From Candidatus Latescibacterota bacterium (GTDB lineage Bacteria > JAAXHH01): a stretch of 64,000 nt of DNA. Of this stretch, positions 49,481 through 62,417 are shown piece by piece. The position numbers and the translations under genes are program-made. Below the pieces are notes generated by a model, which was not told the origin of the DNA, did not search any database, and saw only the letters and a program-made list of their open reading frames with translations. The stretch spans positions 1 through 64,000 of the forward strand of contig JAJEHX010000010.1 in the NCBI GenBank assembly GCA_022823465.1, written 5' to 3'. Every line of letters begins with the position of its first letter. Within the stretch, counting starts at the first letter, position 1.

Positions 49481-50203
49481 TCAGTACTGCCAGTCTTCAT
49501 GCGCGAGAGGAGCACTGTTTAATTCGTCGCGGTAAAGTCGCCATTGAGGCAGGTGTGAATCCATCAATTCTCTGAACCGGTCGTTATGCCTACGTTCGAT
49601 CAAGTGGACCATTTCGTGCACGAGGATGTACAGCAGGCAGGATGGAGGTTTCTTAGCCAGTTCCAGGTTCAACCAGATGCGTTTCGCTTCGATGTTGCAG
49701 GAGCCCCAGAGGGTTTTCATCCTCTTGATACGGAATTCGTTTATAGTTATTCCAACTTTAGACTCCCATTCGGTCTTCAATGACAACACCTGATTCCGAA
49801 GTTGGCGACGGTACCATCGGTGTAGTACAGCTTCCCTTTCGTTTCGGTCGGCAGACGGGCGAACACGAATTTCCATTCTCGTATTGTTTAACAGGCGGAC
49901 ACAAGGCGGACCATCGAACTCACTCACCTGTAGCCGATAGCGACGCCCCCGGTAATAATGACTTTCACCCGACACGAACTCACGCTGAGACTGTCGGACT
50001 TGCTTTTCGAACTCGGCCTGTTTCTTCCGAATCCATGCCAGACGTGAGACCACCGCTGTCCGGATGGCGTCGTCATCGAGATGCAACGGTGCGGCTACGC
50101 GGATTCTGCCGTTTGGTGGATACACTCCCAAGTGAAGGTTCTTGATGTCCTTTCGAACGATCTCGACCACAATTCCTCTTACTTCGATGAGTCTACTACT
50201 CAC
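49481..50203 (-). CDS. YgjP-like (DUF45) zinc metallopeptidase
   Basis: A 240-residue protein of the YgjP/SprT-related family. Zn motif VHEMVHLIERRHNDRF supplies HExxH and the distal His; WGSC ahead of it is also diagnostic. The GTG start is placed 1 nt after the hsdR stop, with AAGGA about 9 nt upstream. An upstream ATG inside hsdR is less likely. Genes of this type often end type I restriction operons. Role unproven; a peptidase or a chaperone for the complex is possible. Confidence 0.85.
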   Translation of the reverse strand: MSSRLIEVRGIVVEIVRKDIKNLHLGVYPPNGRIRVAAPLHLDDDAIRTAVVSRLAWIRKKQAEFEKQVRQSQREFVSGESHYYRGRRYRLQVSEFDGPPCVRLLNNTRMEIRVRPSADRNEREAVLHRWYRRQLRNQVLSLKTEWESKVGITINEFRIKRMKTLWGSCNIEAKRIWLNLELAKKPPSCLLYILVHEMVHLIERRHNDRFRELMDSHLPQWRLYRDELNSAPLAHEDWQY

Positions 50204-50204
50204 C

Positions 50205-53200
50205 TCAGTATTCCTTCTGGTTCTTCGCAATTTCGAAAATCGTCTCGACGAGTGTATCGTTTCCGTCCAATTCGGACTTAATTGCATTACGAATCTTACG
50301 TTCTTTCATCGTATTGCCCCGCCAGTCATCCATTTTTGCAATCCTTATCGTCTTATCCAATGATAAGGCTTTCGACTCCGTAACATCCTCGGTCGATTCA
50401 AACGGGAAGTCGGGCGTTTGTTGTGCGACTTTCAGGCCCTGAACTCCAACCAGATTGTCGTATAGAGATCTCAATGCCGAGGTGTTTATGGTCGAAGGAT
50501 AGGACTCGGAGGTATCGGAAGCCGGATTATGTACTTTTTGTGCCAATTCAACTATCTGAGCCAGGTATTCCTTGTATTCTAGCGCTTCCTGCTTGCGTTG
50601 GCGAATCAGATCATCCAGCAATCGCGACATCTTCTCATAGTACTTTGGATTGACAGGTGTCTCATCGATGATCAGTCGACGGACGTTATTCTCAATGGTC
50701 GAACTTACCGCTTCGTTGTCCTCTCGCATGGTTTCAGGTAGCGCATCGACGGCATCTTCACCATCCCGGACGATCAGTTGTACCAGTGTCATGTCGTCGA
50801 ACGTGGAGACCTGCTCACTTGCCTCTGCACGGATGTAGGTATCGAGCAGGTGACGCATAGCGGGCTCGTACATCTTCATATCGACATAGTCTCCGCTGTT
50901 AAGCTTGACCTCTTTCCGGGCCTTCTCGTAGTGGTCCACTTCGGCTCTGATCTTGCAAGTCTCGGTATCGGAATAGCCTGCTTCCTGCATTTCATTTGCC
51001 AGGTTAGCATATGCGCGAAGGTATGCGACCACCAATTTGTAGAACGCGACCCGCTTGGGTTCATTTTCCCTGAGCTGCTCGGCATCGCCGCTTTCCTGTC
51101 CACAGAAGTACTTGATATAGGCGGACGTATCACGAGGCGGTTCGACAGGCTCCGTTAGCGCCTTGATTGCTTCCCTTGCTTCCTCCAACCGCTCGCGACC
51201 TTGCTGAAGCCGATCCTTTAGCAGACCCTTTACATCTTCGGCATCGTAGCCATCGAAGGCCGCGCCGGTATAATCGTTGATCGACTGTTCCAGCGATCTG
51301 AAGAGATCTTTGTAGTCAATAATGTATCCGTATTCCTTGTCCTCGCCGTCAAGACGGTTGACACGGCAGATCGCCTGGAACAGCCCGTGGTCCTGCATAT
51401 GCTTGTCGATGTAGAGGCAGGTCGCGGGAGGCGCGTCGAATCCGGTCAGCAGCTTGTCCACCACGATCAGGAGTTTCATCTGCCCTGGACTTTCGATGAA
51501 ACGCTTTTTTGCTTCCTGCTCGAACCGGTCGGCCTTTTGCATGGCCGAGTCTTCAGGTTCGTTGAAGTGATCCGCAAGCATCTTGCGGTAGACTTTGTAC
51601 TTGAGCAGTTTCTCCGTGACTCCTTCGCCAGTCTCCTCCCCTTTTAAGTCCGCGGTGGCCGGTCGATAGGAGGTGACAATGGCGCATTTCCCCTCCAGGC
51701 CATGGTTCTGAAACATCTCATAGATGCGACAGGCCGAGTAGATGCTGTCCGAGACGAGCAAAGCGTTGCCCCGGTCGCTCTTTAGTCGGTCACGCGTCTC
51801 CATATCGATCAGGATGTCCGCGACGATCTTTTCCAAACGGTCCTGTGAACTCAACACCCTCCGCATCGTGCCCCAGCGTCGCTTGAGCTGGGCCTTTGCC
51901 ACATCGCTCAGCCCCTTGGTCTTGACGTCGAACCACAGATCAACCTTATCCTGAGCGGTGATGTTCTGATCTATGTCGCGTGCCTCATATCGAAGGTCCA
52001 GCACCACGCCGTCGTTCACCGCTTCGTCGTACTTGTAGGTATGTATGTAGGGTCCAAAGGTCTCGATGCTTCGCCGCTTGTCATCTCTAAGCAACGGGGT
52101 ACCGGTAAACCCGATCAGCGTGGCTTCCGGTAGCAGCGAGGTCATTGCCGCGTGGAGCTTACCGGACTGCGTACGGTGGCACTCGTCCACGAAGACGAAT
52201 ATTTCGCCTTTAGCATGGAAGTTGTCGGGAAGGTGTTTCCGGATGTCGTCAAAGAACGCCTCGATATCGCCTTCTTCAGACGCGCCGAATTTATGGATCA
52301 GTGAGCAAACCAACCACTCGTTGGTGGTGTTCAGTACATGGACCAGATCGGCACCGGAATTGGTCCGGTGGATGTCTTCGCTGACGCCCATGAATACCTT
52401 TTCAATCTGTTCGTCCAGTTCCGTGCGATCTGTGATGATAAGGACGCGACCGCCGCTTACGTTCTCGCGTATCCACTTCGCCAGCCAGACCATGGTCAGG
52501 CTCTTGCCGCTGCCCTGGGTGTGCCATATGATGCCTCCTTCGCGCCGGTTTACGCGCTCCCGGGCGGCTCGTACGCCGAAGTACTGGTTGTGTCGGCAGG
52601 TCTTCTTGTTACCCGTGTCAAAGACGATGAAGTCGTGCACGATCTCCAACAGCCGCTTCTTGTCGCAAAGTTGAGCCAGTTCGCGATGCAGAGGATTGTC
52701 ACCGACTGTGTTTGAGGGTTCTTGTTCCTTCCAGCGCAACCAGTATTTCTCAGGCGTCTCTATTGCTCCGTATCGAAGCCCCTCTGTCTCGTTGCCCGCC
52801 ATGACCAGTTGCACGGTGGTGAAGAATGGCTGGATGAACTCCTTCTTCTGGCTGTCGAGGTTCTGCCGGATGCCCTCGCTTACCGACACGGTGGAGCGCT
52901 TCAGTTCCAGCACGCCTATGGCGATCCCATTGACGTAAAGGACAAGATCGGGCCTCCGCGTATTCTCGCCGATTATGGTCACCTCCACGGCGATGGCGAA
53001 ATCGTTATTCGCAGGGTTTTCCCAATCGATCAGCCAGACGGTCTGGATCTGCTCCCCCACGTCGGGCTGGACCCTTACGCCGTAGCGCAGCAGTCCATAC
53101 AACTCCCGGTTGGCGTCGTAAAGCTTCTTGCTACCGCCGAGTGCCGTTGCCTGGTTTAAAGCAAAAAGCGTCCTGGCGATGATCTTTTCATCATGGCCAT

Positions 53201-53354
53201 TACGTTTCAGCCAGACGGTGACCAGATTCTTTTCTACGTTGCAGTTGTCGGGGCGGTTCTTCCAATCGCCGAGATACTCGTAGTCGAGTACCTCGTCAAA
53301 AAATGCCACAACGCGCTGCTGTGTAAGGATCTCCTGTTCGCCGACTTTGCTCAT
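50205..53354 (-). CDS. hsdR: Type I restriction enzyme, HsdR subunit
   Basis: A 1049-residue motor and nuclease subunit. The N-terminal PD-(D/E)XK nuclease shows RRPDLVLYVNGIAIGVLELK (Asp, then Glu and Lys). The translocase has Walker A HTQGSGKSLTM, DECHRTQ, IGFTGTPLL and the helicase-C motif KLLIVVDKLLTGFDAPP. The C-terminal helical region binds the methylase core. It cuts unmodified DNA far from the recognition site after ATP-driven translocation. Unusually it lies 9 kb from hsdM/S, separated by an inserted cargo of eight genes, and follows the fitAB pair by 111 nt. It probably depends on the fitAB promoter or its own. Confidence 0.95.
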   Translation of the reverse strand: MSKVGEQEILTQQRVVAFFDEVLDYEYLGDWKNRPDNCNVEKNLVTVWLKRNGHDEKIIARTLFALNQATALGGSKKLYDANRELYGLLRYGVRVQPDVGEQIQTVWLIDWENPANNDFAIAVEVTIIGENTRRPDLVLYVNGIAIGVLELKRSTVSVSEGIRQNLDSQKKEFIQPFFTTVQLVMAGNETEGLRYGAIETPEKYWLRWKEQEPSNTVGDNPLHRELAQLCDKKRLLEIVHDFIVFDTGNKKTCRHNQYFGVRAARERVNRREGGIIWHTQGSGKSLTMVWLAKWIRENVSGGRVLIITDRTELDEQIEKVFMGVSEDIHRTNSGADLVHVLNTTNEWLVCSLIHKFGASEEGDIEAFFDDIRKHLPDNFHAKGEIFVFVDECHRTQSGKLHAAMTSLLPEATLIGFTGTPLLRDDKRRSIETFGPYIHTYKYDEAVNDGVVLDLRYEARDIDQNITAQDKVDLWFDVKTKGLSDVAKAQLKRRWGTMRRVLSSQDRLEKIVADILIDMETRDRLKSDRGNALLVSDSIYSACRIYEMFQNHGLEGKCAIVTSYRPATADLKGEETGEGVTEKLLKYKVYRKMLADHFNEPEDSAMQKADRFEQEAKKRFIESPGQMKLLIVVDKLLTGFDAPPATCLYIDKHMQDHGLFQAICRVNRLDGEDKEYGYIIDYKDLFRSLEQSINDYTGAAFDGYDAEDVKGLLKDRLQQGRERLEEAREAIKALTEPVEPPRDTSAYIKYFCGQESGDAEQLRENEPKRVAFYKLVVAYLRAYANLANEMQEAGYSDTETCKIRAEVDHYEKARKEVKLNSGDYVDMKMYEPAMRHLLDTYIRAEASEQVSTFDDMTLVQLIVRDGEDAVDALPETMREDNEAVSSTIENNVRRLIIDETPVNPKYYEKMSRLLDDLIRQRKQEALEYKEYLAQIVELAQKVHNPASDTSESYPSTINTSALRSLYDNLVGVQGLKVAQQTPDFPFESTEDVTESKALSLDKTIRIAKMDDWRGNTMKERKIRNAIKSELDGNDTLVETIFEIAKNQKEY

Positions 53355-53465
53355 GAGTTTACACTCTCCGACATCAGACTTGCTGAGATGGATAGCATCC
53401 CGTTTTTCAGGCGTTGTAATAAGGATATGACAGCCGATTCACTCCGACAATAGTTCATGAAGCAA

Positions 53466-53885
53466 TTAAACGAACCATGGGTTGATTACTTCAATTCCAC
53501 AATGCTCAAAATCACCGACATTACGTGTTGCTACAGCCGCTCCATGGCATCTTGCGATTGCCGCCAACTGGCAATCAGCGAAGCTGATCGGCATCCCTAT
53601 AGCTCGTCTACCGGCAGCGATCACTGCGTGCAAACGCGCGGCATCGCTGTCAAAGGGAAGAATGCGTCGCTCGAAATCTTCCCGAAGCATATTCTCGACT
53701 TCAGATGCCAGTCTTTCACGCCGAAGACCCGCGGGCAGAATTGCAACGCCGAAGCGCAACTCGGCTTCAGTGACAGCCGAGAGGTATACATCTTCAGTGA
53801 TTTGCGCATCAAGCCAAGAAATCACGGAGGGATCAGGCGCGGGACGCGTCAGTTCTGATACGACATTAGTATCGAGAAGGATCAT
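53466..53885 (-). CDS. FitB-like PIN-domain toxin
   Basis: A 139-residue PIN toxin: MILLDTNVVSELTRP (Asp5), LSAVTEAELRFGV (Glu about 41), ISFADCQLAAIARCHG (Asp about 103), VATRNVGDFE (Asp about 124). These are the FitB/VapC active-site positions. It pairs with the FitA-like gene 11 nt upstream. Mg-dependent RNase held inactive until the antitoxin is lost. It lies inside the restriction locus, suggesting stabilisation of the island. Confidence 0.9.
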   Translation of the reverse strand: MILLDTNVVSELTRPAPDPSVISWLDAQITEDVYLSAVTEAELRFGVAILPAGLRRERLASEVENMLREDFERRILPFDSDAARLHAVIAAGRRAIGMPISFADCQLAAIARCHGAAVATRNVGDFEHCGIEVINPWFV

Positions 53886-53896
53886 TCAGGAGGAAC

Positions 53897-54139
53897 TCAA
53901 CCTAATTCCGGTGGATCGCGCATCGGCTCACGGGGGGGTATGTCAAGCTCAACACCGCCCAAGGGCTCAAAACGAGCGCGTATGGACTGTGCCAATTTCA
54001 TACGAGGGTTGTTAATGGCCAGTGCTACTCGAAGGATTACCCGGACTTCCTCCTCCATTGAGTGACCATGCTCGGCTGCTTGGATGCGCAGTCTCTGCTT
54101 TATCTCGTCACTAAGATTTCGAATAGTCATACTAGCCAT
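53897..54139 (-). CDS. FitA-like ribbon-helix-helix antitoxin
   Basis: An 80-residue antitoxin. The N-terminal ribbon-helix-helix (MASMTIRNLSDEIKQRLRIQAAEHGHSMEEEVRVIL) is the FitA signature. The C-terminal tail (PLGGVELDIPPREP) is what wraps the toxin. It is expected to repress its own promoter through the palindrome directly upstream. The toxin gene follows after 11 nt. Confidence 0.9.
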   Translation of the reverse strand: MASMTIRNLSDEIKQRLRIQAAEHGHSMEEEVRVILRVALAINNPRMKLAQSIRARFEPLGGVELDIPPREPMRDPPELG

Positions 54140-54165
54140 TTGGTATTTCCTTTTCGGTTGTATGC

Positions 54166-54194
54166 AATATAGCTAATGATATCATTGATGTCAA
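54166..54194 (-). promoter_or_regulatory. Promoter and operator of fitAB
   Basis: Minus-strand TTGACA, exactly 17 nt, TATATT. The spacer contains a perfect 12-bp palindrome AATGATATCATT (54175-54186), ideally placed for repression by FitAB. The region 54140-54388 is otherwise AT-rich and has no gene. Confidence 0.8.
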
Positions 54195-54388
54195 TGAAAT
54201 CATATTCTACTTGTATCATTAGTTTTGTAAGAACTACCTACTCCATTTCGGTCCTAGGATTCATTTACATTCGATTGGAGTCGGGTATGGATCAAAGCCG
54301 ATTTCAAGTACGCTGATAAATCAAATTCTACATCTAGACTGCAAGCAGGTGTTTACGCATACCAGGTTGTGACCGACACTTGGTTCAT

Positions 54389-54886
54389 TCATCGGTTTTC
54401 GGACTGTTGATCTATGGTTCTAGATAGTTGGGTTTGATTCCATGGCACAACAGGGATCTTGTTGTCTGAGATTGCCTTTGGAATACGATTGGGCGGGGAG
54501 TCACCTTTGTGCATTGCTACGACACCTTTCCCCATGGACAGACTCTCACGTATTTCCCAGTCTACCCATTTACTGTTTGCGGTTTTCTCAGTTAGATAAA
54601 CGACGGTAACTGAGGACTGACGTATACGTTCTCGTATGCCTCGTTTTATATATTGAGCGTCTTTACTATCGAACGGTTTTTTCAACGAGAAGTCGTTGAA
54701 TTCTAGGTTGCTGTTTTCGTTTTTAGCCTGACCACGAACTAGGTTGACTTCATCTATATCATCGGAATCGAAGGCAATGTAGATGTTACGTTTTCCTTCG
54801 CCTTCTTTTAGTGACTGTTTGGCACGTTGCTGAGCTTTTTGATATTCACTATAAGTCATACCACTTCCACCTCCACTGCCCGCCAT
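54389..54886 (-). CDS. ThsB-like (MTH538-type) TIR-domain protein
   Basis: A 165-residue protein. Residues 1-10 are a Gly/Ser tail (MAGSGGGSGM), 11-30 a predicted charged helix, and 33-160 a TIR-like fold of the MTH538/DUF1863 type. Strand 1 is NIYIAFDSDD; the helix NSKWVDWEIRESLSMGKG is very like the catalytic region of SARM1 (WVHKEI), placing the NADase Glu at residue 111. Thoeris ThsB proteins of this family make cyclic-ADP-ribose-type signals. Start: ATG 2 nt after the QueC-like stop, with GGAGG 5 nt upstream, so the Gly tail is really translated. Last gene of the five-gene operon. Confidence 0.8.
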   Translation of the reverse strand: MAGSGGGSGMTYSEYQKAQQRAKQSLKEGEGKRNIYIAFDSDDIDEVNLVRGQAKNENSNLEFNDFSLKKPFDSKDAQYIKRGIRERIRQSSVTVVYLTEKTANSKWVDWEIRESLSMGKGVVAMHKGDSPPNRIPKAISDNKIPVVPWNQTQLSRTIDQQSENR

Positions 54887-54888
54887 TA

Positions 54889-55485
54889 CTACCTCCAGTT
54901 CTTTGCGTTAGCGATCTCAACGCATGCTATACATTCACCACAAGGTTCATCATTTCCAGAATGACATGAATATGCCTGTGTTATACCTCGTTCACTGGCC
55001 ATCTCTAGTATATCTTTTTTGGAGAATTCGAAAAGTGGTGTAAGTACACGTATCCGCCTCTGCATCGCCAACTCGATCATTCTCTCACTTTCTTCCACGA
55101 ATTCCTTGGTCTGATCTGGAAATAGATGATCGACTGGATTCAAAAGTCCAAGTGCTACGCTACCGGCGTGAGTCTGGCAAGCATAGGCTGCTCCAGCAAG
55201 CACAAATAAGAGATTACGACCCGGTAAAAAAGCATCTTCGTTTATGCGTAGACTGCTGTCAGTAAGTCCGCTAGAAATTGACTTTCCAAAACCAGACATA
55301 TCCATATTTGTCACGGAAGGTAAATCGAACTGTTCATGTAATCTTTGACAAGCTGTCCATTCCTTTTTCGCTCCAAGTTGTCCATAATTGACAAAGAGGG
55401 GGAACAACTCGACACCTTCCTCGTGTGCCATCAAACTCATCAGTGTTGAGTCTAGTCCACCAGAGACTAGAGTTACTATCCCCAT
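54889..55485 (-). CDS. QueC-like enzyme (Cap9/QatC-type)
   Basis: A 198-residue member of the QueC family, shorter than housekeeping QueC (about 220-230). PP-loop SGGLDST at residues 8-14 binds ATP; PGRNLLF at 88-94 is the conserved GRN motif; a Zn site is formed by Cys174, 182, 185 and 188 (SC, then CGECIAC). QueC turns carboxy-deazaguanine into preQ0 by adenylation. In type IV CBASS and Qat systems related enzymes act in immunity. No queD, queE or folE is nearby. Its start overlaps the OGG-like gene by 10 nt; its stop touches the TIR gene. Confidence 0.85.
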   Translation of the reverse strand: MGIVTLVSGGLDSTLMSLMAHEEGVELFPLFVNYGQLGAKKEWTACQRLHEQFDLPSVTNMDMSGFGKSISSGLTDSSLRINEDAFLPGRNLLFVLAGAAYACQTHAGSVALGLLNPVDHLFPDQTKEFVEESERMIELAMQRRIRVLTPLFEFSKKDILEMASERGITQAYSCHSGNDEPCGECIACVEIANAKNWR

Positions 55486-56165
55486 TTATCTGATTCCTCC
55501 CTTACTACTTTCATTACAACCCATACAGCTAAATCGAATCGATCTGGCGAGCATCCCAAAGAGTAGGAATGATTGATAAATGACTCTTCCAGTGATTCAT
55601 ACTTTCCCATTGACGATACCGACTTAAGTGGGGATTCCACATAACCGACCCAACTCAGATAAGTTAGAACATGTGTGTCCAATACCGCAATGGATTTGGT
55701 AAAACCTATGTTTCGTAGGAATAAGCTAGACTGCTTAGGTCCTAATCCAGCTACCTCAGTTGCTAATAGGCGTCTTGCACTTCGAACATCATTGGTATTG
55801 CGTAGATACTCCTTAATAGACCCTTTTGTTTTATATATGTGTTCTGCTGCCATCCTAATCTGATTGGCTTTACCGCGGACAAAAGGATATCCTGTAGAAA
55901 GAGCCGCGACTGTTTTTTGTTCAAGTTCATTAAACTCCGAGTCACTACGTGGACTTGAGAGCAAGTTTAGATCATACATTCTTTCTACAGCAGCAAATAC
56001 AGTTTCAATTCTCACTCGACTTCCAAGAATACAGTAAACAAGTTCGCTCCATAGGTCGTCTTCACTGATATCGTTCCATGGAACGGGCGGAATCCTATCC
56101 AGGATATGATACACATCTTTGATCGCATATTCGATAGCTGGAAGAGAATAGCTTTTCTTGGGCAC
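55476..56165 (-). CDS. OGG-like DNA glycosylase (Cap11-type)
   Basis: A 229-residue helix-hairpin-helix glycosylase of the Ogg2/archaeal type. SELVYCILGSRVRIETVFAAV opens the domain; the hairpin is AGLGPKQSSLFLRNIGF with the presumed Schiff-base Lys144; Asp163 is in AVLDTHVLTYL. Both catalytic residues are therefore kept. Housekeeping members remove 8-oxoguanine from DNA; here, beside TGT- and QueC-like genes, a deazaguanine-like base or a modified nucleotide may be the substrate. Starts 1 nt after the TGT-like stop and overlaps the QueC-like gene. Confidence 0.8.
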   Translation of the reverse strand: MPKKSYSLPAIEYAIKDVYHILDRIPPVPWNDISEDDLWSELVYCILGSRVRIETVFAAVERMYDLNLLSSPRSDSEFNELEQKTVAALSTGYPFVRGKANQIRMAAEHIYKTKGSIKEYLRNTNDVRSARRLLATEVAGLGPKQSSLFLRNIGFTKSIAVLDTHVLTYLSWVGYVESPLKSVSSMGKYESLEESFINHSYSLGCSPDRFDLAVWVVMKVVREESDKWG

Positions 56166-56166
56166 G

Positions 56167-57237
56167 CTATTTTAGCCCTTCACAGGCTTCAAGTAATAGA
56201 TCTACATGTTCTTTAGATGCGTATTGTTCCATCAATGATACAGGATCTCCATCGTGTATTGCCAGATGAAGATCTGCCATAAATCCACGATAGAATTCTA
56301 GATTGTGTGCCAATACTGACTGCAAATAGGGAAGTACGGGACATCGGCCCCACTCTGTCTGATGCCGAACTAAGTCCCACTGCTGGAAATGAAACAATCT
56401 CCCTGATTGATGATCAACAACTGTCTGACACCACTCAAGACCATCGAAGCTATCTGCGCCAGCCAAAGCGTAGGCAATAATCGAAAGCGGATTACCTGTG
56501 CCGAGCAGATGAAGAGGGCAATATACCCCCAATGTATCAAGCGCCTCGCGTATTTTCTTTACCGTCCGGGTCCGCTCGACAATGCCGTCTCCTAGCTCAC
56601 GTTCCGGGACGGCCAAGAGTAGTGGATAAAGTTGCTCCGCTGTCATGCGGGCGGCTTCCGGAAATAGTGCTGAGGCTCCATGGACTATCGGAGCCACGGT
56701 ACCTAGGGCGTGTTGCTGATCTCGCATGACATCGGCTACAACTTCTGCTGCAATAGAATCTGGCGTACATGACGGCCGACGGTTATCATAACAGAAACAG
56801 AGTTGGTATTCGCTAACACCAGCAACCTCGTGGAATCTATCGACAAGCCAGGTTTCGTCATTAAGCCAATAACCTTCGTAATTTCCGCTGTCCATGAGGA
56901 TTACAGAGCCACTTTTTCTGCATTCGTTTAATGCGGTATCCATGCATACGCGCTGATCGGCGGTACAGTTAGCGATGTCATAGGCGGATACTAAGAAGAG
57001 CGGGTGACCCAACGCGTTGAGTAGTTGTACATAGTCAACAGGATGCAGGTTTGTTTTGACGCTGGAGACTGATGGGAAAAAGCAGGGTATCGGAATGTTT
57101 GTCTGCGTGACGTAAATCTCGCGGCTTCGGCCTACCGTCATGTTAGATTTCCCAGTGGCGCTACCAGATCCAACGCTATTAGTAAGTGTATAACGTGAAT
57201 CTTTGATAGCAATGAAGTGAACGACAGAATCTACCAC
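56167..57237 (-). CDS. TGT-like protein (Cap10/DpdA-type)
   Basis: A 356-residue TGT-like barrel. LMDSGNYEGY (Asp116) corresponds to the DSGGFQ motif of tRNA-guanine transglycosylase, and HLLGTGNPLSIIAYALAGADSFDG (Asp262, 265) to the second catalytic Asp region. The Cys-x-Cys-x2-Cys zinc site of true TGTs is not seen, as in distant relatives such as DpdA. It may swap a base in nucleic acid, or act on a base-modified partner. Start is a GTG; the first 35 residues are not conserved with TGT and could be overlong. Second gene of the operon, 34 nt after the SLATT gene. Confidence 0.78.
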   Translation of the reverse strand: MVDSVVHFIAIKDSRYTLTNSVGSGSATGKSNMTVGRSREIYVTQTNIPIPCFFPSVSSVKTNLHPVDYVQLLNALGHPLFLVSAYDIANCTADQRVCMDTALNECRKSGSVILMDSGNYEGYWLNDETWLVDRFHEVAGVSEYQLCFCYDNRRPSCTPDSIAAEVVADVMRDQQHALGTVAPIVHGASALFPEAARMTAEQLYPLLLAVPERELGDGIVERTRTVKKIREALDTLGVYCPLHLLGTGNPLSIIAYALAGADSFDGLEWCQTVVDHQSGRLFHFQQWDLVRHQTEWGRCPVLPYLQSVLAHNLEFYRGFMADLHLAIHDGDPVSLMEQYASKEHVDLLLEACEGLK

Positions 57238-57271
57238 ACCATGGTGACCAATAGTTAATCGGGTTAGGTCG

Positions 57272-58201
57272 TCAGACTACTTCTCGACGTGCGCACCACA
57301 TGGTATGTTCGCGAGAAATAGTTTCCTCGACCTGTTCCACAAGTGTGAGAAGGTCGTTCTCTGTTGTAACATTTGAGAATATCGCTTCCTGATCCCCTAG
57401 TTCTTGAGCAGCAAGTGAGTAGGACTGTGCTAACTCTCCGTAGCGCTTCATCTTGCTCCACGCGATAGCTGAAGCAGCACAGGTCATTAGCACTGGTACG
57501 ATGTTTACAGGTAAGCTCTTGGAAGCAGCCCAGATGATCGCGAGGACTACAGCGAGAACCTGTAGTATTGTCACCGTAACGAACCAACAATCTTCTTTTC
57601 CAGCATTGAATCTGGAGTTTTCTGAATACCAGTTTTTTTGGTCGCGTAATCGTGCTTTTAGATACAGGTCCCGCCTTTCGTCCAACGATTTCTCACGTAT
57701 TTTATTCATAAAACTGGGAACGACCTGAGCATTTGCATTTAAGCTTTGGGCCAAGTCTTTTGAACTTGAAGGTCTCGCGTCTCGTATTCGTTGAAGTTGC
57801 TTAACAAAAGACTGGTTAGCATTACTGTCATCCATGAACGGCGTAGCCTTCATAATATACCGCCACGTAGCCGTCTTTGTGGACTCAGCAATGGCACGGC
57901 AGTCAAACCATACCCTGTCGTACCGACGTACACGAGATACCAAATTTAGAATGACACCAATTACAAGAATGATCGCCAAGACAATGTAAATCCACCTGTC
58001 AGATACATCGGGAACTATCGTCGCAAGCGCAGCACCAAAACTACCTAAGATAAGACAGGCGATATGAAACTTCTGACAACAGAGATAACGTTGTTGCGCT
58101 GAAAGTGAAGCTTGATTGGCGTTCTGGTAAAGAGCTGGAAAGTGCTCGTCCTGAATAGTGGTTGAAACCAGGGGGTTTTGATCTCGCATAGTATTGACCA
58201 T
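57272..58201 (-). CDS. DUF4231/SLATT membrane protein, likely effector
   Basis: A 309-residue protein with two pairs of membrane helices, at about 46-66 and 71-92, and 206-226 and 230-250. The first pair follows a helix ending QQRYLCCQKFH (DUF4231-like). The second follows WYSENSRFNAGKEDCW, typical of SLATT domains (SMODS and SLOG-associated 2TM effectors). SLATT proteins are predicted pore-forming effectors that respond to nucleotide signals. Start ATG of MVNTMRD chosen; an upstream TTG and a further ATG are alternatives. First gene of the operon, about 125 nt after the RloC-like gene, so a promoter may lie in that AT-rich gap. Confidence 0.75.
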   Translation of the reverse strand: MVNTMRDQNPLVSTTIQDEHFPALYQNANQASLSAQQRYLCCQKFHIACLILGSFGAALATIVPDVSDRWIYIVLAIILVIGVILNLVSRVRRYDRVWFDCRAIAESTKTATWRYIMKATPFMDDSNANQSFVKQLQRIRDARPSSSKDLAQSLNANAQVVPSFMNKIREKSLDERRDLYLKARLRDQKNWYSENSRFNAGKEDCWFVTVTILQVLAVVLAIIWAASKSLPVNIVPVLMTCAASAIAWSKMKRYGELAQSYSLAAQELGDQEAIFSNVTTENDLLTLVEQVEETISREHTMWCARREVV

Positions 58202-58327
58202 CGACAGACTCAAAGTCTAATGTTCTGTAAAAAAACTGATTACTCAAAACTGACTTTTACATTCGTATGTCTAAGCTGGGTCGCCTATCCGCACGCAGCG
58301 GGTAAATAGAATTTCATCATACGTTGG

Positions 58328-60916
58328 TCATACGACGTCCTGAGAGGGGCGCTTATTGAATTCTTCGCGCCATGCCTTCAGCGACTCCAAGTCCTCGCGC
58401 AGTTCTTTCTCATCAGGCAGAAAGATCGGCGCTTCCTGCGACTGACTGTGCTCGTAGCACGAATACTTGGTCATCAGATCATCTATCAACCTGCAATCTT
58501 CTCGATTGATACTTACAAGTGGTTTAAGTCTATTGTCGGTTGTGACGCTTCTTCGGTGGCGCCGTACGATTTGATTCAGGAGGTCATCTTCGACTGTTCG
58601 CTCCAGAAGTTTTCGAAAATCAGTGCAAATCGCTTGTGCTTGGATCCGGTAGGCACCGGCGCCATCAGTTTTGCCGGCCTTCTTCGCCTTGTCAAGGCGT
58701 GCCAATAGGATATTGTTGCCCGTCTTGGTGTTGACATTCCAGACAGCATCATCCGCTGGGTGGCCTGCGGTCCCGAAAAACGATTCAATACAGCGTTGTT
58801 GAAGATTTGTTCTCTTCCATTCTTCGCCAATCTTCTTTGCGACCTCCTCCATCGCACCATAAAGAGAAAGCCGGTGCGTGAACACAAGGACCTGACGATT
58901 CTGCGCCATTTGCGCAAGACGAGTCGCCACCTGCCACTCGAAGTCTTGATCCAGCGACGAGATCGGATCGTCGAAAATGAATGGTGCCGCGTGGGGCTTC
59001 TCTGCCACATCGGCTAAAAAAGCCGCGAGAGAGACGACGCGACGCTCTCCGTCGCTCAGAATCTTCTCGGGTGCGTTCTCTGTTGTCAGTTTGACTCCCT
59101 TCAGGCGAAGCCCATGGAGTGCTTGCCCTTTTATTGTTTGGGTTTTGATTAGCTCGACCTTGATTCGCGATGCACCCAGAAACTTGAGTTCCTGGTTGAA
59201 ACGATCCACGTACGCCTGTGTGATTACCTTCTCGGCGACACGATTAGCCTCAAGGGATATATTGCGTGAGTTCGCTAATTTCTCCCATTTTTCATACTTT
59301 CGTATAATCTTTAGACGAGCAATCTCGCGGTGGATTGCAGTAGCTTGCTGTGCTGTCCAGCGCAGAGCCTCCAGATTCAGCTTTTCTTGAATTGCCCTTT
59401 CCCGATCGAAGTTCTTCGTATCCTCATCATTTTGCAGTGCGTCGTGCTCCAACGATTCGGCACGGCATGCTATTTGGGTCAAAAGCTCATCTGGTGCCTT
59501 TATAGCGACAGCTTCTGCATCTGCCTCGTCATTTAGGAGATCATTGCGGGTCTTGCCCAATTTGGACCAAAAGGCTCCGATTTTCTCGGTCCAATCCTCC
59601 TCGGTCAATCCGGCAGCCTGACACTTTGTGCGGATTTCCTCGTCATTCCATTGTGTAGGCAGGCTCTCCAGCAATCCACTATACGCTTTTTCAGCCGACT
59701 TGGCTTCAGTCTCTACTGTACTTTGGACAAAAGCTTCAAATTCCTGCAATCGATGCTGTGCTTCTTGAGCCAATTCCTGATGACACAAAATGCACCGTGC
59801 ACCGTTCTCTGTAACAGGATACTCCCGTCCTGGATACGCCGTTTGCGAATATATGCGTGCGGCCTCCCATAGAGCGTTCCACGTTCCGGTCCCGATGCCA
59901 TCCAGTTCGGCACTACCCAATTTAGCGGCATCGGTAGCAATCTTGCGTTTGTGATGTGCATTCCTACGGGCATTCCGAAGAGATTCCACCTGTTGCGGTC
60001 CTACAGCGACTGCGGCGTTTTTTAACTGCACTCCGAGTTGGTCGAGTTGGCTCTTTGTTTTACGCTTTAAATGCGCGAGCTTTGCCGGGTCGTCCGCAGT
60101 TAGACGTTCAGTCAGTTTCTTGAGTTCTTCTTCTTTATCCTGGTCCCATTGTGTTAGACGCAGGATTTCTTGCTCGTCGAGATCGTGTCTCAATACAGCA
60201 TACACTTTACCAGCTTTAGTAGTCCGATATTCTGGTGGCAAATTGGGGAGTGTGCTGACCAGACGATTCCGTTCGTCTTGAAGTCTCGCTTTCACTTGGT
60301 CGCACACAGTTGCCAACGCCTCGAACAAAGTGACGGTCGGTGGCGTGTAGGAGATTGCTTTCTCTTGGCTGATATAAAAGGTGGCAGCATCAGCGTCGAA
60401 TACATCTACGGCTTGGAGGTCCTGTATCGGAGTGTCGTTTGCCAGCCATGTAGTCAATTGCTCGCTTCCCGCCAAACGGTAGCGAAACTGACATTGTTGC
60501 TTTTCAGGTCGAAATTCGAACACGTTGGCCTTGAGCTCTGTCGCTCGGGGTTTCCCACACGCTCGCTTGAGGATGCGAACGTAACCAGTTTTTCCAGAGC
60601 CATTGGGGCCATAGATTACAGAAAGATTTCCAGCTCCGAACTTGAGAGGACTTTGCGGACATAGATTCTCAATGCCGCAGATGTCTCCGATTTCCAAGAG
60701 GTGTACCTCGGTCGAAGATGCAGAGGTAGTTCCAATACCTTCGAATGTGCGGTGAGTGGTCACCTTTTGTCCGGATGTGGTCTTGAGACGCTCGGTGATG
60801 GCCTGGATGTCGCAATCCTCCAAGCTGCTCGAAGCGAGCAGCTTCTCGACCGCTTCCTGAAGCCAATCCTGTTGTTGGTGAAGCCAGGCACGAATCTCTT
60901 GTTCAATGTCAGACAT
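58328..60916 (-). CDS. RloC-like ATPase with zinc hook, probable anticodon nuclease
   Basis: An 862-residue SMC/Rad50-like ATPase. Walker A GPNGSGKT at 103-110; a long coiled coil interrupted by a zinc hook CILC at 375-378; ABC signature LSDGERR at about 620; Walker B FIFDDPISSLD at 647-657. The C terminus has R768-x3-E772 and a later His (His787 or His823), as in PrrC/RloC anticodon nucleases (Arg-x3-Glu with a distal His). RloC cuts tRNA in the anticodon loop when DNA is damaged or restriction is inhibited. It overlaps hsdS by 8 nt, the place where prrC and rloC guard genes are often found. Confidence 0.78.
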   Translation of the reverse strand: MSDIEQEIRAWLHQQQDWLQEAVEKLLASSSLEDCDIQAITERLKTTSGQKVTTHRTFEGIGTTSASSTEVHLLEIGDICGIENLCPQSPLKFGAGNLSVIYGPNGSGKTGYVRILKRACGKPRATELKANVFEFRPEKQQCQFRYRLAGSEQLTTWLANDTPIQDLQAVDVFDADAATFYISQEKAISYTPPTVTLFEALATVCDQVKARLQDERNRLVSTLPNLPPEYRTTKAGKVYAVLRHDLDEQEILRLTQWDQDKEEELKKLTERLTADDPAKLAHLKRKTKSQLDQLGVQLKNAAVAVGPQQVESLRNARRNAHHKRKIATDAAKLGSAELDGIGTGTWNALWEAARIYSQTAYPGREYPVTENGARCILCHQELAQEAQHRLQEFEAFVQSTVETEAKSAEKAYSGLLESLPTQWNDEEIRTKCQAAGLTEEDWTEKIGAFWSKLGKTRNDLLNDEADAEAVAIKAPDELLTQIACRAESLEHDALQNDEDTKNFDRERAIQEKLNLEALRWTAQQATAIHREIARLKIIRKYEKWEKLANSRNISLEANRVAEKVITQAYVDRFNQELKFLGASRIKVELIKTQTIKGQALHGLRLKGVKLTTENAPEKILSDGERRVVSLAAFLADVAEKPHAAPFIFDDPISSLDQDFEWQVATRLAQMAQNRQVLVFTHRLSLYGAMEEVAKKIGEEWKRTNLQQRCIESFFGTAGHPADDAVWNVNTKTGNNILLARLDKAKKAGKTDGAGAYRIQAQAICTDFRKLLERTVEDDLLNQIVRRHRRSVTTDNRLKPLVSINREDCRLIDDLMTKYSCYEHSQSQEAPIFLPDEKELREDLESLKAWREEFNKRPSQDVV

Positions 60917-62312
60917 TTGCAGCCCTCTCTGATTCGACCAATCGTACCCGGCCGGTGAGAAGCTGCTGGATCATGCCTTGTTTGATGGCACGCATCTTGT
61001 ATCGGCGATGTTCCAGCGCGGTGATCTCGTCGTCCATATCGGAGAGTATGGCGGCGATTGCATGCTGTTCCGTATGAGTAGGAATACGTAATGAAAGTGA
61101 TGCCACATCAGACTTACTGATTTCAAGAAAAGTTGAACCGATGGCCCGCTCTATCAGTTGCGGTTTAAGTGTCAAAAGTAGGTAATATAGAAACTCGTTC
61201 GACACATCGGTTTTACAGACGAGCGATTTGAAGCCTTGATTGGTGCATACTGGTGATACAGCGATTTTAATCTCCCCAATGGTTGCACGGCTGCACAGGA
61301 GAAGGGAGCCGGCAGGGAGCAGTCGTGCTGAGCAACTTACCAGCCCCTCTTCGGTGACACTCCGTTCTGTCGCGCGAAGGTACTTCCCAGGCATAGCTGT
61401 GATGTCGGTCGGCGTGCACCACGGAATCCGTCCGTTCCAATAAGCACTTACCTGAGTATTTGGCGTTGCTCCACTATATATCTCTGCGATATCTCCAAGT
61501 GTTGTTGTCTCCCACGCCCCGCTAAATCCCGGCAATCGTGTCATGCCAATGAGGAGTTGCTGCATGGCGGCCCGCTTGATGGCCTGTTTCTTGGCAATCA
61601 GGGTCTCCAACGCTGCGTGCAATCCATCTACGTCCGACAAAGCCTCGGCAATGTCGCGTTGTTCGGTTTCAGGTGGAACCGGTGCCGAATAGCGTGTGAC
61701 TTGAGGGGCTGTTAATTGAGGCACTCCTGTGCTTTCGATTGCAAATTGGACTCCATGATTGATGTAACTGGAGAAATACCTGGCATCCATCCTGATCTTT
61801 GGCTTCAACACAAGTAGCCTGCCAATCGCGACGAATGGCGTATCTCTATAAAACGCTACTCCCAAGGTGCCTCTCGCTGTGATAGTGATAGACCCCGTTC
61901 GGTTTTCTGCGTAGTCAGAGAATCCATAGAGACCTTCTTGCGAAAGACCGTTCGCAAATATGGGATATGGGTGACTATCGCTCTGTACGTCGCTGGATCT
62001 AGTTGAGTCAAAGTCGCCGCCAGCTGTTGACTCAAACAGGTCACCAATTTTCATTACATCCCAATCAGACGGTATCACCCCCACCTCAGTTCGCTTGTAA
62101 CCTGCCGGTACCTCCGACCTGTCTGCTGGAGTACCGTACGACGGTGCAGATACAGTCTGCGGGTGCGCAAAGGAAGGCAATGCGAGATCTCCTTCACCCA
62201 GGGCGTTAATCATTGTCTCTTGTCTCGTGTTCATAACATTCGCCTTGTCTCGAGAGACAGAAACGCGGCTCCGATAGTTGAGCAGGGGAAACCCCATTTT
62301 TTGCTCTGCCAT
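60909..62312 (-). CDS. hsdS: Type I restriction-modification specificity subunit HsdS
   Basis: DNA-recognition subunit with two target-recognition domains, each followed by a conserved helix: LSDVDGLHAALETLIAKKQ and LSDMDDEITALEHRRYKM, both ending in AIK-x-x-M-x-QQLL. The first domain starts at about the GVIPSDWDVMKIGDLFE motif, the second at GAWETTTLGDIAEI. The start is uncertain: the frame is open to a TTG at 62408, 9 nt after hsdM; the ATG given follows GGTGGA; an ATG at 62234 is also reasonable. The N-terminal 80-100 residues do not look like usual HsdS. Overlaps the RloC-like gene. Confidence 0.9.
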   Translation of the reverse strand: MAEQKMGFPLLNYRSRVSVSRDKANVMNTRQETMINALGEGDLALPSFAHPQTVSAPSYGTPADRSEVPAGYKRTEVGVIPSDWDVMKIGDLFESTAGGDFDSTRSSDVQSDSHPYPIFANGLSQEGLYGFSDYAENRTGSITITARGTLGVAFYRDTPFVAIGRLLVLKPKIRMDARYFSSYINHGVQFAIESTGVPQLTAPQVTRYSAPVPPETEQRDIAEALSDVDGLHAALETLIAKKQAIKRAAMQQLLIGMTRLPGFSGAWETTTLGDIAEIYSGATPNTQVSAYWNGRIPWCTPTDITAMPGKYLRATERSVTEEGLVSCSARLLPAGSLLLCSRATIGEIKIAVSPVCTNQGFKSLVCKTDVSNEFLYYLLLTLKPQLIERAIGSTFLEISKSDVASLSLRIPTHTEQHAIAAILSDMDDEITALEHRRYKMRAIKQGMIQQLLTGRVRLVESERAANV

Positions 62313-62417
62313 CACTGTTCCACCAATGTATAGGCCTTCAGATTGCCAACAAATGGTCGGTGATTCTATCGTGTTTTTTTCTGGATATACAGAAAGCCAA
62401 CAGTACAAAGACCTCTC

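Follow-up and report, generated by a model that had tools for sequence, protein, structure and literature searches.

A QueC-, TGT- and OGG-like gene cassette with a glycine-tailed TIR protein as a probable TIR-based counterpart of type IV CBASS

Introduction

In type IV CBASS, Cap9 conjugates 7-carboxy-7-deazaguanine (CDG) to the N-terminal glycine of a CD-NTase that starts with MGGS (PMC11996544, PMC13279940). The glycine concerned is G2, which is modified after removal of the methionine, and the modified N terminus is bound by Cap10 (PMC11996544, PMC13279940, PMC13329287). G2 of MGGS is the NDG site, and the substitution G2D kills defence (PMC13279940). In the Qat system, QatB needs an MGTS N terminus, and QatC has an altered pocket and a product that is unresolved (PMC13279940). 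The initial annotation of the locus described here had pointed to this CBASS and Qat chemistry, which is confirmed by the published work (PMC11996544, PMC13279940).

Protein deazaguanylation was first described as recently as 2025 and for a single enzyme family, and neither TIR proteins nor Thoeris is mentioned in the two QueC papers. In this study, a gene cassette was analysed that combines QueC-, TGT- and OGG-like proteins with a TIR protein. This combination is not named by any model in PADLOC 2023 or NCBIfam 2026, and a description of the cassette was not found in the open-access literature, subscription papers and preprints being outside the scope of that search. The cassette is apparently an undescribed anti-phage-type gene set and is treated here as a putative variant of deazaguanylation-based immunity.

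Results

The window, as the whole stretch of DNA analysed is called here, comprises 64,000 nucleotides from a Candidatus Latescibacterota bacterium. Five genes lie head to tail on its minus strand at 54389-58213. They encode, in order, a membrane protein with SLATT_3 and SLATT_1 domains (57272..58213; PF18184, 1.7e-31; PF18181, 1.2e-30), which is a candidate effector; a Cap10/TGT-like protein (56167..57237); an OGG-like homologue of HhH DNA glycosylase/lyases (55476..56165; PF22175, E=2.7e-27); a Cap9/QueC-like ligase of 198 aa (54889..55485; PF06508, E=1.5e-37); and a ThsB-type TIR protein of 165 aa (54389..54886; PF08937, E=2.3e-23) with a catalytic-type glutamate, E111, in the motif WVDWE. 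All five are intact open reading frames with conserved motifs. With the exception of the SLATT gene, they are tightly packed, with 1-2 nt between neighbours and an overlap of 10 nt between the OGG- and QueC-like genes.

The cassette sits between hsdS (62408-60909) and hsdR (53354-50205) of a type I restriction system, adjoined by a PDC-S06-type ATPase gene (58328-60916) and a FitA/VapC-like pair (54139-53466), and these surroundings are a defence-island setting. The type I restriction locus as a whole (49481-62408) is split by defence genes, namely the PDC-S06 ATPase, the cassette and the FitA/VapC-like toxin-antitoxin pair; a gene for a YgjP-like metallopeptidase follows hsdR. A second copy of the cassette was not found in genomes of the same phylum as the window host.

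At the junction of the QueC-like and TIR genes, the minus strand reads GAACTGGAGGTAG, a TA spacer and then ATGGCGGGCAGTGGAGGTGGAAGTGGTATG. The QueC-like stop codon, TAG, occupies 54891-54889, and the TIR ATG follows after 2 nt at 54886 with a GGAGG 5 nt upstream of it. The TIR reading frame (54886-54389) opens with MAGSGGGSGM, after which a helix begins. The 2-nt spacing, the GGAGG site and the tail ahead of a helix, which had been noticed in the initial annotation, were confirmed in the sequence. The inference drawn from them, that the Gly/Ser tail (54857..54886, minus strand; a putative 7-deazaguanine acceptor) is translated, was upheld, but not by the signals in the window alone. A GGAGG also lies 10 nt ahead of the only other in-frame start of the TIR gene, M10, since glycine codons resemble Shine-Dalgarno sites, and the start is therefore undecidable from the window by itself. 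Among the other QueC-linked TIRs, the upstream start is kept in 41 of 41, which ruled out the tail as an annotation artefact of a protein starting at M10. In the TIR model, tail residues 1-8 have pLDDT values below 50 and the helix spans residues 12-28. Residue 2 of the window TIR is Ala, which is unique among 42 QueC-linked TIRs, the other 41 having Gly; the acceptor in the window would therefore be Ala. Methionine aminopeptidase exposes Ala as well as Gly.

The first relatives found were rhizobial plasmids with the same gene order, the TIRs of which start with MGGGGGGNWNRLGD and MGGGSSGSWSRLGD. Patterns derived from the TIR core, without the tail, were run against 84,980 species genomes and gave 38 loci; one of these, from an archaeal MAG (L040), has its TIR at a contig edge with a broken 5' end and no QueC in the DNA analysed around it, and was excluded from the counts. 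The QueC-like gene lies directly upstream of the TIR gene in 37/37 scorable loci and on four rhizobial plasmids. Among these 37 QueC-linked loci, a TGT-like gene is present in 35 and an OGG-like gene in 36, mostly contiguous and in the order TGT-OGG-QueC-TIR. The hosts belong to eight bacterial phyla (Pseudomonadota, Thermodesulfobacteriota, Methylomirabilota, Acidobacteriota, Bacteroidota, Nitrospirota, Myxococcota and Minisyncoccota), and the cassette also occurs in archaeal MAGs.

The TIR starts with MGG in 41 of the 42 QueC-linked proteins (37 loci and four plasmid copies), the exception being the window with MAG. These starts lie in the same place as the window start, usually no more than about 10 nt from the QueC stop. 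Position 3 is G without exception, position 4 may be G, S, N or D, and the tail drifts beyond that point; moreover, Gly2 and Gly3 are encoded by differing GGN codons. In L028 and L046 the TIR genes are frameshifted and their MGG starts are intact. As controls, ThsB_TIR (PF08937) matches were taken from two sets of genomes, 22 that bear the cassette and 289 that belong to the class of G027. Of these ThsB-type TIRs, 34 have no QueC next to them, and the 34 take in second TIRs from the same loci or genomes. In none of them is the start followed by Gly-Gly, and the TIR domain mostly begins 5-10 residues after the methionine, although the frames of a few are less certain (for example L094, L098, L104, L105 and L107). 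In addition, three further QueC-linked TIRs from the independent 289-genome sample (L083, L085 and L090) all start with MGG, and no MGG start is found in the 108 TGT, OGG and QueC reading frames of the same loci. The unlinked TIRs and the neighbouring reading frames together ruled out chance composition as the source of the tail. Fisher's test for MGG (41/42 linked against 0/33 unlinked) gave p = 1.7e-20, which is only indicative since the sequences are not independent. The check proposed at the outset, whether the glycine tail is conserved only where a QueC-like gene is present, thus came out as predicted.

The QueC-like protein carries the motifs SGGLDS, YGQ..E, PGRN and FPDQ and a zinc site, C(x)7CGxCxxC. 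In a phmmer search against the PDB, Cap9 (9nto) was the first match (2.4e-13), level with the enterobacterial QueC 2pg3. The AlphaFold2 model (pLDDT 93.7) has as its top fold match the same entry, the Cap9-CdnD-NDG complex 9nto (E=1.2e-13, TMt 0.86). The Cap9 motifs SGGxDS, Y/FxQ(x)5E, RN and C(x)7CxxCxxC are present, and the zinc spacing C(x)7C is that of Cap9, whereas canonical QueC has C(x)8C. The invariant D124 aligns with D117 of Cap9, which reads the Watson-Crick edge of 7-deazaguanine (PMC13279940). Only YxDC is replaced: the YPDC of QueC and Cap9 is FPDQ in the cassette enzymes, with PDQ invariant, which leaves room for a donor other than CDG. A tree of 47 sequences places the cassette enzymes in a single group (99/97), separate from canonical QueC (100/96) and from Cap9. 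How these three groups branch is unresolved without an outgroup, and a sister relationship between cassette QueC and Cap9 remains unsettled because there were only two Cap9 sequences, no outgroup and long branches. A canonical preQ0 synthase was rejected on the TIGR00364 score (122.5 bits against a cut-off of 150.3), the FPDQ and C(x)7C motifs and the position outside the canonical clade. A phage origin was also rejected, phage QueCs being no closer than canonical ones, with at most about 31% identity among the matches listed.

A profile of 10 TGT-like sequences (A3), which takes in one CBASS row, the protein of L008, matched Cap10 in the PDB (9ntn) at 4.4e-35 and archaeosine TGT at only 2.8e-5; with the window sequence alone, Cap10 was also the first PDB match (1.9e-7). 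The TGT-like protein is without the CxCxxC zinc site of tRNA transglycosylases and retains the DSG and FD base-pocket motifs; the canonical TGT of the window host carries CSCYAC...H. The idea that the TGT-like protein recognises the base is supported by Cap10 as its best structural match, although binding itself is inferred. The TGT-like proteins of L004-L007 and of many proteobacterial loci carry a TIR_2 domain at their N terminus, giving two TIR domains per cassette; this domain was shown for L004, and the other loci were judged by protein lengths. Neither the window TGT nor the CBASS Cap10 gave a match in scans of viral contigs, and the PADLOC TGT family, searched across 369 gammaproteobacterial genomes, returned only the one already known, so that CBASS Cap10 was not sampled in this way. 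The OGG-like protein is nearest to archaeal-type OGG (PDB 3fhg/3fhf), and its catalytic residues K144 and D163 are invariant (alignment A6); that it removes the base is a prediction of the initial annotation only. In the TIR, the Glu of WVxWE (E111) is invariant among relatives, and the model fold is nearest to the 8fz9 TIR and to ThsB structures. TIR catalysis is inferred from this one conserved Glu and the fold.

Around the cassette, a SLATT protein is found nearby in 18 of 37 loci, and its role as effector in the window is inferred from position only. A protein from a cluster whose sampled members carry TPR-S is present in 27 loci. TPR-S (PF20308) was seen beside the cassette at L012:7563-8984, L017:8409-10100 and L024:7962-9422 and in relatives, and some of these proteins are fused to trypsin-like peptidase or alpha/beta-hydrolase domains; they are candidate messenger-activated effectors. 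As the neighbours differ and the four-gene core is constant, the effector seems to vary as in CBASS. A PfkB-like protein is a frequent fifth member, encoded upstream of TGT in 24 loci (for example L004:6342-7490 and L018:3037-4194). It has about 385 aa, only part of which is covered by the PfkB match, and its role possibly lies in nucleoside metabolism. No CD-NTase was found by seed matching in the related loci, in the window operon or among the leading Pfam and PADLOC families of 76 neighbour proteins. No ThsA model was among the leading PADLOC matches of the neighbours, for which no dedicated ThsA search was made.

Discussion

The cassette is probably a TIR-based counterpart of type IV CBASS in which the TIR takes the place of the CD-NTase as the deazaguanylated signal synthase. 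Its anatomy and conservation, the tie between MGG and QueC, the standing of Cap9 and Cap10 as nearest structures and the retention of catalytic motifs are computed observations. Every element of type IV CBASS is present, with the one difference that a TIR carries the MGG start, and conjugation, reading by the TGT-like protein and the TIR as synthase are inferred on that account. With ATP, the QueC-like, Cap9-like enzyme would activate CDG, or a close analogue, at its carboxylate and would couple the activated base to the free amine at the TIR N terminus, exposed by removal of Met1; the disordered Gly/Ser tail and the helix presumably bring this amine to the active site of the QueC-like enzyme. 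The TGT-like, Cap10-like protein may then bind the modified N terminus, and the modified TIR would be kept in a signalling state or licensed for one. Once infection occurs, the TIR is predicted to make an NAD-derived messenger that triggers an effector, which would be the SLATT protein in the window and, in other loci, TPR-S proteins, some of which have a peptidase or hydrolase fused to them. Like the conjugation and the recognition, the messenger, the effector and the defence role are inferences with no biochemistry behind them. The proposal of the initial annotation that the QueC-like enzyme conjugates its product to the TIR nevertheless gains support from the MGG-QueC tie and the Cap9 match, with the reservation that the window itself has Ala at residue 2.

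That residue raises the question of whether the window copy is decaying or altered, such that A2 abolishes modification and the locus is dead even though the family works as described. This is improbable but deserves to be kept in mind, A2 being the only such case in 42 sequences; however, the five reading frames and their motifs are intact, the remaining glycine tail is kept, and Ala, as a matter of general knowledge, is likewise exposed by methionine aminopeptidase. The three enzymes could also be thought to act on nucleic acid, the QueC-like protein making free 7-deazaguanine, the TGT-like protein inserting it and the OGG-like protein excising it, with the TIR tail a mere flexible linker. 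Homologues of QueC, TGT and OGG all act in base modification elsewhere, and the catalytic Lys and Asp of the OGG-like protein are indeed kept. However, a linker needs no fixed MGG at positions 1-3 amid a drifting tail and would not be missing whenever QueC is absent, and a TGT-like protein that has no CxCxxC zinc site and is far nearer to Cap10 than to any tRNA transglycosylase fits poorly, so that we attach very little weight to this account.

A further point is the supply of the base. Canonical QueC is present in most of the cassette hosts searched, and the window host has canonical QueC, a double QueD, a canonical TGT, a weak QueE-like match and a reading frame that reads as FolE, though no family search lies behind the latter. 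In two hosts, Pseudooceanicola batsensis (G023; L026) and a Frigidibacter MAG (G034; L043), both of them drafts, no QueD, QueE or canonical QueC was detectable; this counts against the preferred explanation, since the source of CDG there is unexplained. The donor might be salvaged in these hosts or might differ from CDG, the latter agreeing with FPDQ. It is conceivable, if unlikely, that the QueC-like enzyme conjugates the TIR N terminus to a carboxylic acid or base other than CDG, which the TGT-like protein reads. The pocket motif FPDQ in place of YPDC and the two hosts just named speak for such a donor, as does QatC, with its altered pocket and unresolved product (PMC13279940). Nevertheless, the Asp for the Watson-Crick edge is kept, as is an aromatic residue for stacking (F for Y), E. 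coli QueC with the Y131F substitution is partially active (PMC13329287), and most hosts searched do have canonical QueC.

If deazaguanylation of the TIR holds, it would be a control module that can be transferred between immune proteins that produce signals, it would connect TIR/Thoeris-type signalling with CBASS accessory genes, and it would explain TGT- and QueC-like genes in defence islands without nucleic acid modification. We lean, with some reserve, towards N-terminal nucleobase conjugation as a general switch of bacterial immune signal synthases that extends over the unrelated folds of CD-NTases, QatB and TIRs, the TIR system being undescribed and widespread and its base maybe distinct. 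The MGG-start TIR is a putative substrate for deazaguanylation that is directly testable.

Among known systems, qatABCD resembles the cassette in having a QueC-family protein beside a protein with a disordered N-terminal glycine tail. However, QatC has about 400 aa, extensions and a remodelled Thr/Thr pocket, whereas the cassette enzyme is minimal (198 aa) and Cap9-like; QatA, QatB and QatD are absent from the five window operon proteins, and the QatC model reached only E=0.017. The likeness to Thoeris lies in the TIR, which belongs to PF08937 ThsB_TIR and matches ThsB structures. In contrast to Thoeris, the constant partners are QueC-, OGG- and TGT-like proteins, and the N-terminal extension is missing from unlinked ThsB-type TIRs; ThsA was not among the leading PADLOC matches of the neighbours. 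A type IV CBASS with Cap9, Cap10, an MGGSGGG CD-NTase and a small hydrophobic protein was observed on a Pseudanabaena plasmid (L008:4854-7927), and no OGG was seen in that locus. The cassette differs from type IV CBASS in that its MGG protein is a ThsB-type TIR and no CD-NTase was found, in that its QueC-like proteins form their own clade with FPDQ for YPDC, and in that a second TIR domain is often part of its TGT-like protein. As the defining CD-NTase is wanting, the cassette is not filed as type IV CBASS. OGG-like proteins are associated with type IV CBASS and are counted as shared with the cassette. Moreover, the two have in common a QueC-like/TGT-like pair that is best matched by the structures of Cap9 and Cap10, and an acceptor-type M-G-G N terminus (MAG in the window) on the neighbouring signalling enzyme.
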